5,959 nt of DNA from Desulfobia sp. (GTDB lineage Bacteria > Desulfobacterota > Desulfobulbia > Desulfobulbales > SURF-16). The stretch is taken from NCBI GenBank assembly GCA_030608985.1, contig JAUWDC010000085.1, positions 1 to 5,959 on the forward strand. The letters are read 5' to 3'. This document shows positions 295 to 5,959 of the stretch, in pieces. The translations under genes and the position numbers were made by a program. The notes under the pieces are model-generated. The model did not search any database. It was given only the letters and a program-made list of their open reading frames with translations, and was not told the DNA's origin. Position 1 is the stretch's first letter. Each line of letters opens with the position of its first letter.

Positions 295-1023
295 CTAATC
301 AGCAATGAGCTTAAATCGTACGGGGACCTTAACCCACATTTCCATTATTTTCCCGTTTTGTCTGCCTGGTGTAAAATGCCATCTACGGATAGCTTTTAAC
401 GCGGCTTTGTCCAAAACACTATGACCACATGATACATGGAGGTGTTGCTCTTTCACTCTCCCATTGATATCAACCAACACATTAACTTCAACCAGGCCCT
501 CAAACCCTCGTCGTCTGGCGGCACGAGGGTAGGGTGGAGGATGATTGTAATGTAGTAGTGGAACCGCTTCCTGTATAACATTGCCGGCCACTGAACTGCG
601 TGCAGGAGTGGATGTGTTTTGTTCAGTTTTTTCTACACGCTGCTGTGGTGTTTTTATAAGTTCTTTTTTCTGAAGCGGCACAACAGGGGCTGGAGTTTTT
701 CTTTGCTGCTTCTCAATAGGCTTCTTTCTCTGAACAGGTCTCAGCGGTTTAATTGTATTTTGTATTGGGTTTGGCGCTGGAGGTTCAACGTGAGCAATCG
801 TTTTTTCTTTACTGATTGGCTGATCAGTTAATTCTGCCGGAGGTTTTTCCATGGGACTATGGTTGTCATCTGGCGCCGGGGATTCAATGTCAGCAAGTGA
901 GACCATAATCTTCTTGAATTCGAGGGGTCTTGGTCGAATCATTTGTGGATCTGCCAGTTTTATAAAAAATAAGGCAGCATGCAGCCCGATGGCAATTAAA
1001 AATGCTGCCAGCAACCGTTTCAT
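295..1023 (-). CDS. tonB: TonB energy-transducing protein
   Basis: A 242-residue TonB, close to the usual 230-270. It links the ExbB-ExbD proton channel in the inner membrane to TonB-dependent receptors in the outer membrane. Visible parts: an N-terminal membrane anchor at residues 4-22 with a histidine in the helix (H15, in the place of the conserved SHLS-motif histidine); a proline- and lysine-rich periplasmic spacer at about 48-145; and the C-terminal TonB domain at about 150-242, with Y165-P166, the strand GFEGLVEVNVLVDINGRV and the helix-strand ALKAIRRWHFTPG. The ATG overlaps the exbD stop as ATGA (1020-1023). Only weak Shine-Dalgarno complementarity is seen upstream, so translation probably depends on coupling to exbD. 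A later start would delete the membrane anchor. Position in the operon suggests a copy dedicated to the receptor upstream. Confidence 0.95.
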   Translation of the reverse strand: MKRLLAAFLIAIGLHAALFFIKLADPQMIRPRPLEFKKIMVSLADIESPAPDDNHSPMEKPPAELTDQPISKEKTIAHVEPPAPNPIQNTIKPLRPVQRKKPIEKQQRKTPAPVVPLQKKELIKTPQQRVEKTEQNTSTPARSSVAGNVIQEAVPLLHYNHPPPYPRAARRRGFEGLVEVNVLVDINGRVKEQHLHVSCGHSVLDKAALKAIRRWHFTPGRQNGKIMEMWVKVPVRFKLIAD

Positions 1024-1454
1024 TGAACAGGTTTTGCTTCTAATTTTTCGGCAGCAAGGGAAATATGCTGGATACCCGAAGCCTTAATTCTATCCAGCAC
1101 CTGAAAAAGATCCTGGTAGGAGACTGATTTGTCACCATAGACCTGTACTTTTCTTTCTTTTTTGTCACGAAGCTCGCATTTTTGCTCCAGAACGGCTGTC
1201 AGGGAATTCAAAGGGATTTTTTCTGCATCAACAAAGAGTGAAATGCCGTTATCCTGGGACTGCAAAGTCACTGTTATGGCCTCATTGGTGTCGATCTGTA
1301 CAGAGTCTGAAGAAGGCAGTTGCACCGGCTGGCTGCGATGAACACTCATTGACAGCATGGCATAGATAAAGAAGACCAGCAGTAGAAAGACGATATCGAT
1401 AAGAGGCAGCATCTCAATACGAGGTTGTTTTACCTTATCTCGTCTTATTCTCAT
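1020..1454 (-). CDS. exbD: ExbD/TolR family proton-channel subunit
   Basis: A 144-residue ExbD, near the normal size of about 140. It is anchored in the inner membrane by one helix (about residues 17-36) and forms the proton path with ExbB. The PLID motif at 17-20 contains D20, which corresponds to the essential aspartate of ExbD (D25 in E. coli) that is protonated during channel function. The periplasmic domain (about 50-144) ends in the family pattern GDKSVSYQDLFQVLDRIKAS followed by G-I-x-x-I-S-L. The short basic N-terminus (R2, R4, R5, K7, K9) fits the cytoplasmic side. It overlaps exbB at its start and tonB at its end by ATGA, so all three subunits are translationally coupled. ExbD rather than TolR is preferred because it sits between exbB and tonB next to a TonB-dependent receptor. 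Confidence 0.95.
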   Translation of the reverse strand: MRIRRDKVKQPRIEMLPLIDIVFLLLVFFIYAMLSMSVHRSQPVQLPSSDSVQIDTNEAITVTLQSQDNGISLFVDAEKIPLNSLTAVLEQKCELRDKKERKVQVYGDKSVSYQDLFQVLDRIKASGIQHISLAAEKLEAKPVQ

Positions 1455-2074
1455 TCCACCTCCTTTTTACCTTGAAGTTTGTTGTAAACCACTTCAAGGC
1501 TGGTGGCATATTTTTCCATAATATGGACAGAATTTTCTATGCGGCTGTTAAAATAATTATAAGGAAAAACTGTGAAGATAGCGATCCCAAGGCCTGATGC
1601 CGTGGTGATAAGTGCCTGGGCGATACCCGCGGTAACCAGCTTTGGGTCAGCAATGCCGCTTGTGCCTAATATTTTAAAGGAAGAAATGATTCCAATGACT
1701 GTCCCGAAGATTCCCAAAAGAGGGGCTACAGTTATCATGGTGTCAAGAATAGACATAAACTTTCCCATTCTTTTTATTGTCACCTGACTTTCAGCTTCCA
1801 TGGCTTTGACCATGTCATATTCCCGATGCATTATTCCAACGGTAAGGACCCGGATGACATGATCTTTACATCCCTTGGTCTTTTCACGGATAAGCGGCCA
1901 ATCTCCCTCTTCGGCAATGGCAAGGATTTCATCCATCAAACTGTGATTACGTTGTCTTCTTACGCCAAGCCAGAATAATGTCCGTTCGATAATGACTGTC
2001 AGGACAATGATTGAGCAGGCAAGGAGAGGCCACATTACTGGTCCGCCGTTATTAAAAAAGTCCAGGATGGTCAT
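1451..2074 (-). CDS. exbB: ExbB/TolQ/MotA family proton-channel subunit
   Basis: A 207-residue ExbB, the shorter form of the family (E. coli ExbB is 244). It is an inner-membrane protein that forms the pentameric channel around ExbD. Three membrane segments are visible: about 13-36 (ending in the conserved E30-R31), about 112-134 with the signature APLLGIFGTVIGII (T125 lining the pore), and about 148-172 with ALITTASGLGIAI (T157/T158). The loop between helices 1 and 2 is the expected cytoplasmic domain and contains conserved-looking A-x-E and R-M-G-K residues at 91-105. The start at 2074 is supported by an AAGGAG ribosome site and overlaps the stop of the upstream fusion gene as ATGA. The last codons (KKEVE) are written by the bases that also form the exbD ribosome site, so the two functions share sequence. 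Confidence 0.95.
   Translation of the reverse strand: MTILDFFNNGGPVMWPLLACSIIVLTVIIERTLFWLGVRRQRNHSLMDEILAIAEEGDWPLIREKTKGCKDHVIRVLTVGIMHREYDMVKAMEAESQVTIKRMGKFMSILDTMITVAPLLGIFGTVIGIISSFKILGTSGIADPKLVTAGIAQALITTASGLGIAIFTVFPYNYFNSRIENSVHIMEKYATSLEVVYNKLQGKKEVE
1459..1465 (-). promoter_or_regulatory. Ribosome binding site of exbD
   Basis: AAGGAGG on the minus strand, four bases upstream of the exbD ATG at 1454. It is the strongest Shine-Dalgarno in the window and lies inside the last codons of exbB, which fixes the exbD start and suggests that exbD is strongly translated. Confidence 0.85.
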
Positions 2075-4086
2075 TTGTGACTCCTTGTTTGAAGACCTGT
2101 AATCAGGGCTGACAGAGAATTATTAATAAAAAGAGGGAGTTTGTCACCTGGCAATGGTTGTAGTTCTTCTATATGGCGTCCTGCAAGTTGTGAAGCGACG
2201 GCAAGACACCAATGGTGAAAGAGTGAAGGATCAGACAACAAGCCTTTTTCAGATGTATCGCTTAAGGTCAATGCCATGTGAAGAAAATCGGCATAAGAAG
2301 GTTGGAGAAGCAATTCCTCAAGCTCCTGCCGCAGCTGGTTATCAGGTGATGTGAGTGCATAGAGGTTGATGTGACGTTCTTGCAGACGATGAAATATAGA
2401 ACGTTGCGCTGTGAGGCCATTCTGTTTCTGGGTGGATTCAATGATCCCTTGATATACTGCCTCCGCTATCAGCTGGCCAATTTTGGTGTGACCGCCAGTG
2501 CGGTCAATGTCAACCCCGCTGCCCTGGACGACTATGATATTATCAGTTCCGGTCCCTGTTGCCTGATTGTGCAATGGTGTCGGAGTACTGCGCACATCAA
2601 GATCCTGCATGGCCGCACTCTTGGCTTCTGTTATATTTATAATTGCCTTGGTCATTGCCCGAGGTGACAAGGTAACATTGGCAAGGAGAATGATATTAAT
2701 GGTGCCTGGCTTTTGTTGAATGTGGTCAATAGCCGTATCCCCGAATTGCGCAGCTGGATAGAAATTTCCCGTATCGGTCCCCATGCGAAGTGCATTAGAT
2801 TTTACTCCTGCCGTCACCAGAATATAGACAACTATGTCACGGTATGTTTTTTTTACCACTGCAAGGTTGTCCATGTCAGCGCCGGTGAAGAGAAAAGCAC
2901 TTGTTGCCGGATCCATACCCAAGGCTTTTAAGGTATGCTTCTCTAGACCGGCGAGACCGTCATTATGCCCCAAACCCCATGACGGTGGTGGAAAAAAATG
3001 GTTGGCAACCGTAGTGATTCCTTTTCGTTCACCAGCCAGGGTGGATAGAATCTGCATGGGCTTGTTAAATTCAATAACCACGGTTTTGTTTCTGAAATCA
3101 CGGATATTACTCTCAATTATTTTTGTTTGAGTGACATAATCTAGGTCCACGTGGATTGGCCGTTCGCTCACCATGCCTTCGTTAAGAGCATACTGTGCCG
3201 GATCACTGAACTCTTCAGGGTAGAGGCGTGCAGCGAGCAGTGAAACAAAGTTTCCAGCTTTGGTTGCAACTCTGCATGTGAGATCACAGGGGAAGGAGAA
3301 AATACGATTTTCCCGTACTGCTTCAACGTCTTTCCAGCCGGTTTGTTGAAGAAACTGCCGGAGTTCACTGTTGTCACCGCAGCTATAGAGAGCCTGGGGA
3401 TTAAAGTTCTGCCATTCTGCCATCGTTACAGGAATAATAGAGCCATTCCGGCCAAAAGAAGGGGGAATCCCTCCAGCCCTCCTGATATATTCATTCTGAA
3501 AGGAATCATCTCCCGGAGTCATCACGGAACTCTGACCCATAAGACGCATAACGCGGAGTTTCTTGCCATTATCAATGTGTGCTGTTTTTCTTTCGATCAA
3601 GTCGAGCAGACGTTTCTGTTCGGAAATAATACGATGTGCTCTTTCCGGTTGGTCGAATATATCTCCTAAAAGGTGGATATGATCAAAGCTTTCTTCTGTG
3701 GAGTTCGCTTGCAGGTTAATGAGGGACACTTTCCCCTGAAAATGATCAACTATATCCTTTTGAATGCTACTGTAAAAAATAAGATCGGGCTGTAATGATT
3801 CAATTTTCGCAATGGAAGGATGTGCAAACCCTCCGACTATAACCTTTTTTGTTGTGACAGAGGGCAGGGTAGAGTGGTAGGTAACGCCTACCAGGGATGT
3901 GTCAACGCCAATGCTCAAAAGCATCTCGGTTACGGAAGGTACCAGAGAGACAATACGGTTCGGCCTTGTGGATATGCTAAACTCATAACCTGATGAGTCT
4001 GTAAAGACAATTGGTGAGGCTACTGGTTCAAGAACATTAAAAAGAAGTATGAACGCAGTTATTAATATGTACTGAATAGTTTTCAT
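2071..4086 (-). CDS. cbiZ: Exported fusion of BtuF-like corrinoid-binding domain and CbiZ adenosylcobinamide amidohydrolase
   Basis: A 671-residue protein with three parts. Residues 1-24 are a Sec signal peptide without a lipobox cysteine, so a soluble periplasmic protein is predicted. Residues about 26-295 are a BtuF-like helical-backbone binding domain (Peripla_BP_2): NRIVSLVPSVTEMLLSIG, then VGV, VGGFAHPSI and LQPDLI. Cysteines C237, C267 and C271 could form a disulfide, as in BtuF. Residues about 335-555 match CbiZ (PF01955): LFTGADMDNLAVV, VTAGVKSNALRMG, ATGTGTDNIIVV (509-520) and GGHTKIGQLIAEAV (531-544). CbiZ cleaves the aminopropanol side chain of adenosylcobinamide, giving cobyric acid for rebuilding cobamides. 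Residues about 556-671 are a helical extension I do not recognise. The ATG at 4086 is fixed by an in-frame TAA two codons upstream; no Shine-Dalgarno is visible. The end overlaps exbB by ATGA. Oddities: an exported CbiZ, and alanines (A93, A223) where BtuF-type proteins have permease-docking glutamates. Domain assignment is confident; periplasmic activity is inferred. Confidence 0.92.
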   Translation of the reverse strand: MKTIQYILITAFILLFNVLEPVASPIVFTDSSGYEFSISTRPNRIVSLVPSVTEMLLSIGVDTSLVGVTYHSTLPSVTTKKVIVGGFAHPSIAKIESLQPDLIFYSSIQKDIVDHFQGKVSLINLQANSTEESFDHIHLLGDIFDQPERAHRIISEQKRLLDLIERKTAHIDNGKKLRVMRLMGQSSVMTPGDDSFQNEYIRRAGGIPPSFGRNGSIIPVTMAEWQNFNPQALYSCGDNSELRQFLQQTGWKDVEAVRENRIFSFPCDLTCRVATKAGNFVSLLAARLYPEEFSDPAQYALNEGMVSERPIHVDLDYVTQTKIIESNIRDFRNKTVVIEFNKPMQILSTLAGERKGITTVANHFFPPPSWGLGHNDGLAGLEKHTLKALGMDPATSAFLFTGADMDNLAVVKKTYRDIVVYILVTAGVKSNALRMGTDTGNFYPAAQFGDTAIDHIQQKPGTINIILLANVTLSPRAMTKAIINITEAKSAAMQDLDVRSTPTPLHNQATGTGTDNIIVVQGSGVDIDRTGGHTKIGQLIAEAVYQGIIESTQKQNGLTAQRSIFHRLQERHINLYALTSPDNQLRQELEELLLQPSYADFLHMALTLSDTSEKGLLSDPSLFHHWCLAVASQLAGRHIEELQPLPGDKLPLFINNSLSALITGLQTRSHK
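2081..2086 (-). promoter_or_regulatory. Ribosome binding site of exbB
   Basis: AAGGAG on the minus strand, six bases upstream of the exbB ATG at 2074 and inside the final codons of the binding protein-CbiZ gene. It supports the exbB start and the ATGA overlap. Confidence 0.8.
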
Positions 4087-4144: not shown

Positions 4145-5959
4145 TTAATAGTTGTATGTCAAGCTCATGAAGAGACTGCGGCCCGGCATTGGATACCCTT
4201 TTACATAGGCGTATTCTTTGTCAAAAAGGTTGATTATATCACCTTTTACTGTAAAGGTGCCGTACTGGTCAAAGTCCAGAAACCTTTTACTCAATGAGAG
4301 ATCTGCTACAGTAAAGCCGCCCATTTCAACTTCAGGAGTAGGCCAGCCACCTGTCTCCCAGTCATCAACTGTCTGGCGACCCGTATAAGAAAAATTCAGA
4401 CGGCTGGAGAAACCATCCATATCAGAAATGCTCAGACCATAAGAGGCATTCCAGTCGTTAGTATATTTCAAGTCTTCATCGTTTTCTTCATCCCTATATT
4501 CGTCGAGATAGACAAAGTTGACATAAGGTTTTACCTCATATTGCCAACCAAGTCTCATGCCGATATCGTATGAGAATAGACCTTCAATACCTGAAATCTC
4601 AGCCTCACCGACGTTGTCCCATGTGGAACTTCCGGCAACGGAAACTGTTTCAATTTTGTCCTCGAAATCAGTATAAAAGTAACTGAGACTGGCGGACATG
4701 ACATTCGTAGTATAGTCAACACCGACCTCATACGTCTTACTTGATTCAGGGTCAAGATCAGGATTGCCAACATAATGAATACCCCATATAACATAATCAG
4801 CTGCCAGCTGATCCGCACCTGGCATAACGAATGCCTCTCCATATTGTGCTCGTATTTTAAGGTTTTCAGTTGGAAGATAGGCCACTCCAATGCTTGGAGT
4901 GACGTTATTGTCATCTTCTGAGTTGCCTGCAGGTTCTGAGACTTCAACATCATAGGTGTCATAACGAAGACCTACATCAACGATAATGTGATCTTCATAA
5001 AATTTGGCCTTTGTCAGCAGAAAATAGCCTGTATTTTCGTATTCGGTTTTTTCCGGAGTCCAGGTTGTGGTCATCTCATAGTCCAACCAGTCTATACCTC
5101 CTGTCATTTTCAGCCAGGACATGTCTTTCGTTATCTGGGCCTGAAAACCTTCATGGTCGGTTTTCTGTTTATCAGGGATTCCATCATCCCACCCACTGGC
5201 ATTGCTGTCTGTAGGGTCGTGCCAGATATCCTCATCTTCACCATCAAAATAACGTACAAGCCAGAACATATCTTTCGAGCTGGTATTTCCCGTATAGATG
5301 AAATCAATGGATGAAAGTTCAGAGTCAGTGTAGTTATCGAGGTCATTGTTGCTCAGGTAGAATGGATTACCGATTTCGTCAGCATCATATTGAGAGTATA
5401 TTATTCCAACCCTATGATTTTTCAGGTTATACCCAAGGTTAAGAGAAATACTGTCCTTTTGGTCAAAACCTGTGTTTTTAAACTTGTCTCCAGAGCCTGT
5501 ATCGTAATCATCCATGGAAGATCGAGAAAAACTTGCGGACAGGTCAAAACCATTCTGTTCTCCTGAGACAAGAATACCTGCTTCATCATAGCTGAAGCTT
5601 CCAAGGGTCCCGGTGAGTTCCGCAGACGGTGCCCCTTCACCCTGCCTGGTGATTACATTGATTACACCACCAACTGCTGCAGAGCCATACTGCACCGCTC
5701 CAGGACCTCTGATGATCTCTATGCGTTCAATATTTCGGGTGGAAATCTTTGCAACATTGCCGGTACCGGCACGCCTTCCATTTAACAGTACAAGAACATG
5801 TCCACGCAGGTCATTTCCGTGTGTGTCAGTTTTGAAACCGCGTATGCCAATGGTTGTAAGGGATCCTGGGTATTTTTTGATGTAGCCGGTCCCTTTTTCT
5901 GCTAGCAGATCGCCTAAGTCTTTTGCCGGGGATGCAGCAATTTCTTCAGCGTCAATGAC
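4145..5959 (-). CDS. TonB-dependent outer-membrane receptor, probably for corrinoids (BtuB-like), N-terminus missing
   Basis: 604 codons of a receptor open at the high-coordinate edge; frame continuity from 5959 to the TAA at 4147-4145 was checked by hand translation. The first ~110 residues are the plug domain: VIDAEEIAASPAKDLGDLL, TTIGIRGF, VLVLLNGRRAGTGNV and IERIEIIRGPGAVQYGSAAV. The rest is a 22-strand beta barrel ending with NLFDKEYAYVKGYPMPGRS and a terminal aromatic Y, the C-terminal signal for barrel assembly; NPDLDPESSKTYEVGVDY is a typical mid-barrel motif. The missing part should be only the signal peptide, TonB box and first plug strand. There are no cysteines in the visible part, and some loops are very acidic (for example 5150-5245). 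A corrinoid ligand is inferred from the adjacent BtuF-CbiZ fusion and the BtuB-like C-terminus; a siderophore receptor cannot be excluded from sequence alone. The GTG at 5695 lies inside the plug and is not the start. Confidence 0.93.
   Translation of the reverse strand, partial: VIDAEEIAASPAKDLGDLLAEKGTGYIKKYPGSLTTIGIRGFKTDTHGNDLRGHVLVLLNGRRAGTGNVAKISTRNIERIEIIRGPGAVQYGSAAVGGVINVITRQGEGAPSAELTGTLGSFSYDEAGILVSGEQNGFDLSASFSRSSMDDYDTGSGDKFKNTGFDQKDSISLNLGYNLKNHRVGIIYSQYDADEIGNPFYLSNNDLDNYTDSELSSIDFIYTGNTSSKDMFWLVRYFDGEDEDIWHDPTDSNASGWDDGIPDKQKTDHEGFQAQITKDMSWLKMTGGIDWLDYEMTTTWTPEKTEYENTGYFLLTKAKFYEDHIIVDVGLRYDTYDVEVSEPAGNSEDDNNVTPSIGVAYLPTENLKIRAQYGEAFVMPGADQLAADYVIWGIHYVGNPDLDPESSKTYEVGVDYTTNVMSASLSYFYTDFEDKIETVSVAGSSTWDNVGEAEISGIEGLFSYDIGMRLGWQYEVKPYVNFVYLDEYRDEENDEDLKYTNDWNASYGLSISDMDGFSSRLNFSYTGRQTVDDWETGGWPTPEVEMGGFTVADLSLSKRFLDFDQYGTFTVKGDIINLFDKEYAYVKGYPMPGRSLFMSLTYNY

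Follow-up and report, generated by a model that had tools for sequence, protein, structure and literature searches.

The characterised CbiZ enzymes of Methanosarcina and Rhodobacter sphaeroides (adenosylcobinamide amidohydrolase, PF01955) are cytoplasmic and carry no binding-protein domain. In passages of one survey, 9.1% of bacterial species have an annotated CbiZ (PMC6461909), and passages of two further papers report it adjoining B12 transport genes in many bacteria (PMC8620254, PMC4285132). CbiR of Akkermansia muciniphila likewise starts cobamide remodelling; in the excerpts of its description that are available it shows no similarity to CbiZ, probably forms a TIM barrel and cuts a different bond, and the same excerpts raise as an open problem how newly made cobamides are spared, coupling to uptake being mentioned as one answer (PMC7733943). 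The present analysis concerns a stretch of 5,959 bases from Desulfobia sp. (contig JAUWDC010000085.1, assembly GCA_030608985.1), hereafter called the window, which coincides exactly with the contig and belongs to a draft genome of 1.69 megabases that is 70.5% complete. One of its genes encodes a BtuF-like periplasmic binding domain fused to a CbiZ domain. The evidence set out below makes it probable that this protein and its relatives are exported and that, once in the periplasm, they remove the aminopropanol/nucleotide arm of corrinoids, so that a cobyric-acid-type product would cross the inner membrane. Both domains of the fusion are already visible in the names of database proteins; no description of an exported or BtuF-fused CbiZ was found among the matches listed by searches of the open PMC literature, which lacks the main CbiZ papers and a 2024 review.

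The fusion gene is a single uninterrupted frame on the minus strand (2071..4086, read from 4086 to 2071; 671 amino acids and a stop), and both the frame and the two domains that an earlier note on this DNA had claimed were confirmed by open reading frame calling and Pfam. Along the chain, a signal-peptide-like N-terminus (about residues 1-24, 4015..4086; helix 2-18 in the AlphaFold2 model) is followed by the BtuF-like domain (about residues 25-295, 3202..4014; Peripla_BP_2 at residues 45-266, 6.3e-19), which has the class III binding-protein fold of BtuF, then by the CbiZ domain (residues 339-547, 2446..3072) and finally by a C-terminal helical region (residues 556-671, 2074..2421), to which Pfam gives no match. 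The CbiZ match has a significance of 8.3e-49 and a score of 166.6 bits against a curated cut-off of 27, and it extends over profile positions 1-190 of 191, so that the domain is as full as the earlier note had taken it to be. The likeness to the Methanosarcina and R. sphaeroides enzymes consists of this Pfam domain, shared almost from end to end, rather than of a direct sequence comparison, and the window protein adds to it the signal-peptide-like N-terminus and the BtuF-like domain. Two motifs noticed earlier are also in place, ATGTGTD (residues 509-515, 2542..2562), which holds TGTGTD, and GGHTKIG (residues 531-537, 2476..2496). In the plasmid collection, the CbiZ part is matched best by the Dehalococcoides mccartyi CbiZ of pDhc6 (37.6% identity over residues 335-548), a protein of 255 amino acids that has neither a signal-peptide-like N-terminus, as judged by eye, nor a BtuF domain, whereas the window fusion has both.

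A protein search returned 1486 relatives at E <=0.001, and both domains are present in 120/120 of the matches listed. In a genome scan with one genome per GTDB species, 298 relatives were found, of which the best 80 loci were kept; most of these are labelled as delta-proteobacteria or Desulfo- genera and a few bear other labels. The fusion has the same architecture and an open frame in all 80, 78 through open reading frame calling and two (L048 and L102) by separate inspection. The locus counts given below use the 78 called loci, many of which lie on short contigs. A chance, chimeric or assembly-artefact frame was ruled out by the fusion in the 80 loci together with a public database protein 97% identical to that of the window.

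To place the CbiZ domain with respect to the inner membrane, N-termini were scored with a simple hydropathy rule, the outcome of which is a prediction. Seventy-five of the 76 testable fusions begin with a signal-peptide-like sequence, in contrast to the characterised cytoplasmic CbiZs, which have no export signal; of 14 non-fused CbiZs taken as a contrast set, a single one (L013) exceeds the signal threshold, and its frame is over-extended. The possibility that a second membrane segment takes CbiZ back into the cytoplasm was ruled out, since at a threshold of 1.6 over 19 residues none of the 78 fusions has a membrane-like stretch between the BtuF and CbiZ domains, the highest value being 1.26. 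Two observations weigh against this simple topology. When the span is taken to start ten residues inside the BtuF match and to end with CbiZ, a stretch above 1.6 occurs in 2/78 fusions (L091, 1.83; L047, 1.67), in both cases close to where the BtuF domain begins, and the C-terminal tail exceeds 1.6 in 3/78, with a maximum of 1.74. The latter is no threat to the topology because an anchor in the tail would leave CbiZ where it is. The export claimed in the earlier note is therefore supported at the level of prediction.

A contrary possibility is that the N-terminus fails to direct export, which would make the fusion an ordinary cytoplasmic remodelling enzyme. Such a location would be that of the characterised CbiZs, the signal-peptide rule is a simple one, and there is a precedent for joining CbiZ to a transporter ATPase, namely the BtuD-CbiZ type of Bacillaceae encoded on a Cytobacillus spongiae plasmid. 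The Cytobacillus protein resembles the window fusion in that CbiZ is joined to a B12-importer part, in a row with binding protein, permease and cobamide genes. However, its CbiZ follows an apparent cytoplasmic ATPase (the ATPase part was read from the sequence, the database record naming the amidohydrolase alone), whereas the window CbiZ follows a periplasmic binding protein, on the opposite side of the membrane. With nearly all testable fusions carrying a signal-peptide-like N-terminus attached to a binding-protein fold of extracytoplasmic function, and often lying beside a TonB system, a cytoplasmic location is extremely improbable.

Whether the exported CbiZ domain could still be an enzyme was approached through its conserved residues. 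The alignment comprises 129 CbiZ rows (120 distinct). Fusions account for 91 of these (82 distinct), and the 38 remaining rows include the D. mccartyi protein, two from Rhodobacterales and one from Bacillaceae. Nine positions, T401, G427, N431, T462, N464, G511, T512, T514 and D515, are invariant in 129/129 rows; the fusions thus keep the residues that mark the family and share them with the other CbiZs, including the two on Rhodobacterales plasmids. The intact CbiZ domain of the earlier note is supported at the level of these conserved residues. Mean pairwise identity among 51 fusions is 63.0% for CbiZ, 51.7% for BtuF and 41.2% for the tail. That CbiZ is the best conserved part and retains its invariant residues argues against a dead domain. 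A protein that no longer cuts but acts as a two-site periplasmic corrinoid-binding or buffering protein would dispense with the adenosyl ligand that CbiZ substrates are described as carrying and that would be hard to supply outside the cytoplasm, but the retention of all nine positions in 91/91 fusion rows and the stronger conservation of the CbiZ part than of the binding part make this very improbable.

Foldseek comparison of the model of the CbiZ half predicts a fold of the DmpA/NylC type, that is, an N-terminal nucleophile (Ntn) hydrolase fold; the matching rows cover residues 1-263 of the half model and barely include the C-terminal tail. Such a fold would be fit for amide hydrolysis, and because it is that of self-cleaving amidases, Thr462 is likely to be the catalytic nucleophile. 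Thr462 lies in a GTIN motif (residues 461-464, 2695..2706), and the model leaves a loop of low confidence (residues 431-459, 2710..2796; predicted local distance difference test, or pLDDT, <50) directly before strand 462-469, which may be the self-cleavage loop. Several results count against this assignment. The TM-scores (a measure of structural similarity) of the fold match are low, 0.29-0.40, and in the model of the CbiZ half alone the confidence is low around ATGTGTD, residues 504-511 having a pLDDT <50. No significant sequence or profile match links the CbiZ half to the DmpA/NylC/ThnT/BapA amidases (Peptidase_S58): hhalign of the CbiZ and S58 profiles gave E 0.11 with four S58 proteins and 0.9 in a global run, and Peptidase_S58 (PF03576) was not matched in six sequences at E <=10. 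These results do not show homology between CbiZ and Peptidase_S58 by sequence, and the fold match alone stands. A profile search for a solved CbiZ structure gave no credible PDB match (best E 1.5), and another structure search matched the BtuF part, except for one row at E 0.3. For a family that has no PDB relative by profile search, the predicted fold supplies a catalytic residue that can be tested.

The role of the BtuF half bears on how the enzyme would cooperate with the importer. In the available passages of PMC3741162, two BtuF glutamates (Glu74 and Glu202 in its numbering) pair with BtuC arginines in BtuCDF, and such pairs are required for docking in related importers. In E. coli BtuF the pair is Glu72 and Glu202, the first being residue 72 in the precursor count; the window protein has Ala at both positions, with the reservation that the register of the alignment is uncertain around position 202. 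Both glutamates are kept in 12/78 fusions as against 31/32 stand-alone BtuFs of the same loci (Fisher p 1.9e-16, a value that is too small since the rows are related). The same distinction is found within single chains. Ten long relatives have a third domain, a C-terminal BtuF, and the two glutamates are present in 10/10 of these C-terminal domains and in 0/10 of the N-terminal BtuF domains of the same chains, although two of the ten rows (P0024 and L047) are apparently the same contig. The C-terminal BtuF is 57-67% identical to stand-alone BtuFs of other loci (two best matches), and the three-domain proteins appear to have arisen by fusion of a downstream btuF gene onto the two-domain gene. 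BtuF-CbiZ-BtuF proteins of 901-937 amino acids are encoded at L047:9929-12742, L076:2-2785, L085:2-2707 and L094:182-2971.

These patterns can be confronted with a different mechanism, in which the fusion is the importer's own binding protein, its BtuF domain docking on BtuCD and CbiZ cleaving while docked, so that cleavage and transport are one step. Consistent with docking, and awkward for a BtuF half devoted to CbiZ, both positions are acidic (Glu or Asp) in 31/78 fusions, and 74/78 have an acidic residue at most two residues away from position 202. In addition, a separate BtuF was not seen in 49/78 loci, short contigs being frequent, and no link was seen between loss of the pair and whether the locus also encodes a separate BtuF: both positions are acidic in 14/29 fusions with one and in 17/49 without. 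By contrast, the scarcity of the complete glutamate pair in the fusions, its absence from the window protein, and the arrangement in L076 and L085, where BtuC and BtuD follow immediately and the fusions bear the extra C-terminal BtuF with both glutamates, render single-step cleavage and transport unlikely. The corrinoid-binding domain of the earlier note thus stands as far as the fold is concerned, while the residue patterns make it an improbable docking protein of the importer. Since the fused BtuF rarely has both docking glutamates, it probably presents the substrate to CbiZ, and another BtuF would deliver the product. Judging from these residues, the two tasks seem to be kept separate in evolution: the corrinoid is presented to CbiZ by one BtuF, and the importer is fed by another. 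These two kinds of BtuF, and the likely DmpA/NylC-type fold with Thr462 as a lead to the CbiZ nucleophile, which rests on a model, are additions to the earlier note.

In the window, the fusion gene lies in a same-strand series with a TonB-dependent outer-membrane receptor gene upstream (4145..5959, minus strand; PF00593, PF07715), cut at its 5' end by the contig end, and with genes for an ExbB-like proton channel (1451..2074; PF01618), an ExbD-like protein (1020..1454; PF02472) and TonB (295..1023; PF03544) downstream, all on the minus strand. Overlaps of 4 base pairs occur at the fusion/exbB, exbB/exbD and exbD/tonB junctions, as in a tightly coupled operon. Neighbours in the other loci were labelled by sequence clusters, counted anywhere on the locus stretch, with one member per cluster confirmed by Pfam (in L050 for CobN, CbiK, BtuF, DUF2149, DUF2162, MotA/ExbB and FecCD; through one member elsewhere for the receptor, ExbB, TonB, ABC ATPase, CobQ-like, CbiA-like, CbiB, CobA, CobT-like and aminotransferase clusters). 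In this survey for the fusion near exbB-exbD-tonB, a TonB-dependent receptor was present in 54 of the 78 loci, a separate BtuF in 29, ExbB in 27, TonB in 25, ExbD in 24, a CobN-like chelatase in 22, BtuD in 18, BtuC in 16 and CbiK in 14. At least one named gene lies within the same-strand run of the fusion in 68/78 loci; the remaining 10/78, with no named gene in that run, fit the proposal less well. The same-strand runs also contain cobamide genes: a cobD-like aminotransferase in 5 loci, cobQ, cobA and cbiA in 4 each, cbiB in 3 and cobT in 1. These TonB-system neighbours and same-strand runs support the coupling to TonB uptake that had been claimed, and on the place of the protein and its partners the earlier interpretation is largely borne out, which amounts to partial support for the whole.

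Cobalamin riboswitches were found in 17/20 loci picked by size (11/14 and 6/6), and in all 17 one lies directly upstream of the same-strand genes leading to the fusion. In the three negative loci the contig starts inside the receptor gene (L061 and L097) or 174 bases before the MotA gene (L052), so the fusion operon carries a B12 switch wherever its place was visible. None was found in the window itself, where the expected place is missing because the contig ends inside the receptor gene. The receptor offers less guidance and is a point against a corrinoid-specific reading: models for heme, siderophores and B12 score about equally on the window receptor and none reaches its cut-off, so that family models give no answer as to the ligand. 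Together with CobN-like and DUF2162-MotA-DUF2149 neighbours, a set that I take to resemble the Bacteroides heme operon hmuSTUV in gene kinds, this would suit another tetrapyrrole (heme or a porphyrin) as substrate, handled jointly with the exported CobN-like protein. Such a substrate is very improbable in view of the riboswitches, of the cobamide genes, even though these occur in few runs, and of the lack of a methionine-rich insertion in the CobN-like neighbours.

From the genes, their order, the riboswitches and the residue patterns described, and from the predicted export and fold, I infer a substrate, a periplasmic reaction and an import of the product as follows. A TonB-dependent receptor, probably powered by ExbB-ExbD-TonB of the same operon, would bring mixed cobamides and cobinamide into the periplasm, the B12 riboswitches of the relatives pointing to corrinoids as its substrate. 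The N-terminal BtuF-like domain would capture them and, as the lost docking glutamates suggest, hold them for the attached CbiZ rather than dock on BtuCD. The CbiZ domain would hydrolyse the amide bond, probably with Thr462, removing the aminopropanol arm together with any lower ligand attached to it. A separate BtuF, or the extra C-terminal BtuF of the three-domain relatives, may then pass the product to BtuCD, and inside the cell CbiB and CobU would help to rebuild the cell's own cobamide. CbiB and CobU are each present in 13/13 distinct genomes examined for CbiZ, CbiB and CobU, which were selected because they bear the fusion, so that a cobyric acid product could be used there; the 13 go back to sixteen genome entries, among which three pairs agreed in size and in the place of the gene. 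The fusion is the sole CbiZ in 10 of these 13 chosen genomes, two of which, from Desulfonema magnum and Desulfosarcina widdelii, are complete, and a non-fused CbiZ is additional to it in the other 3.

Three facts sit uneasily with the proposed periplasmic reaction. Corrinoid adenosylation is not expected in the periplasm; the characterised CbiZs are described, in the available parts of the literature, on adenosylated corrinoids; and in the window's own genome, at its 70.5% completeness, neither CbiB nor a FecCD above cut-off was found, only a sub-cut-off FecCD fragment. A more complete scheme of periplasmic dismantling, with an exported BtuF-CbiZ, a self-cleaving DmpA-type site at Thr462, cobyric acid handed to a docking-competent second BtuF, breakdown and rebuilding never sharing a compartment, and all CbiZs consequently being Ntn-type amidases, seems about evenly balanced between true and false. 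If cutting is periplasmic, the problem of self-cutting is solved by space, and enzymatic editing is added to the periplasmic leg of vitamin import, which calls into question the need for the adenosyl ligand. In many sulfate-reducing and related bacteria, foreign B12 variants would then probably be trimmed in the space between the two membranes, ahead of import.

The spread of long CbiZ frames is such that genome-based predictions of who remodels which cobamides would change. As judged by frame length only, 53/89 CbiZ places in a sample of the phylum (395 genomes, 81 with CbiZ) and 35/62 in the window's order (193 genomes, 56 with CbiZ) lie in frames of at least 600 amino acids. In a tree of 43 CbiZ domains (25 from fusions), the fused and non-fused labels need a single change, with support 97/99; D. 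mccartyi CbiZ, which has a long branch, is placed among the fused domains, and this placement is untrustworthy. A second CbiZ type of about 400 amino acids, lacking BtuF and a signal peptide, occurs in the window's order (L002-L019), in some genomes beside the fusion. The conserved helical tail of the fusion (residues 556-671) can be loosely aligned with the region that follows CbiZ in these non-fused proteins.

The chelatases near the fusion deserve separate mention. The CobN-like proteins of 22/78 loci (for example L050:762-8447, L041, L042 and L044) have a signal-peptide-like N-terminus in 21/22 cases, the 22nd being cut by its contig, and their genes mostly occur with DUF2162-MotA-DUF2149 genes adjoining the fusion, in B12-riboswitch operons. 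An HmuS identity was rejected: passages of PMC12583661 ascribe a Met-rich insertion to the HmuS family, and the 22 proteins have none, with at most 8 Met per 40 residues. The CobN-like neighbour is a candidate exported corrinoid chelatase or dechelatase. Two CbiK-like cobaltochelatases (L037:15282-16286 and L110:508-1404) have a signal-peptide-like N-terminus by eye, which other members of their cluster lack. In L056, L072, L089 and L101, the corrinoid adenosyltransferase gene cobA lies directly before the fusion gene (Pfam-checked in L089), an arrangement that would fit adenosylation after import.

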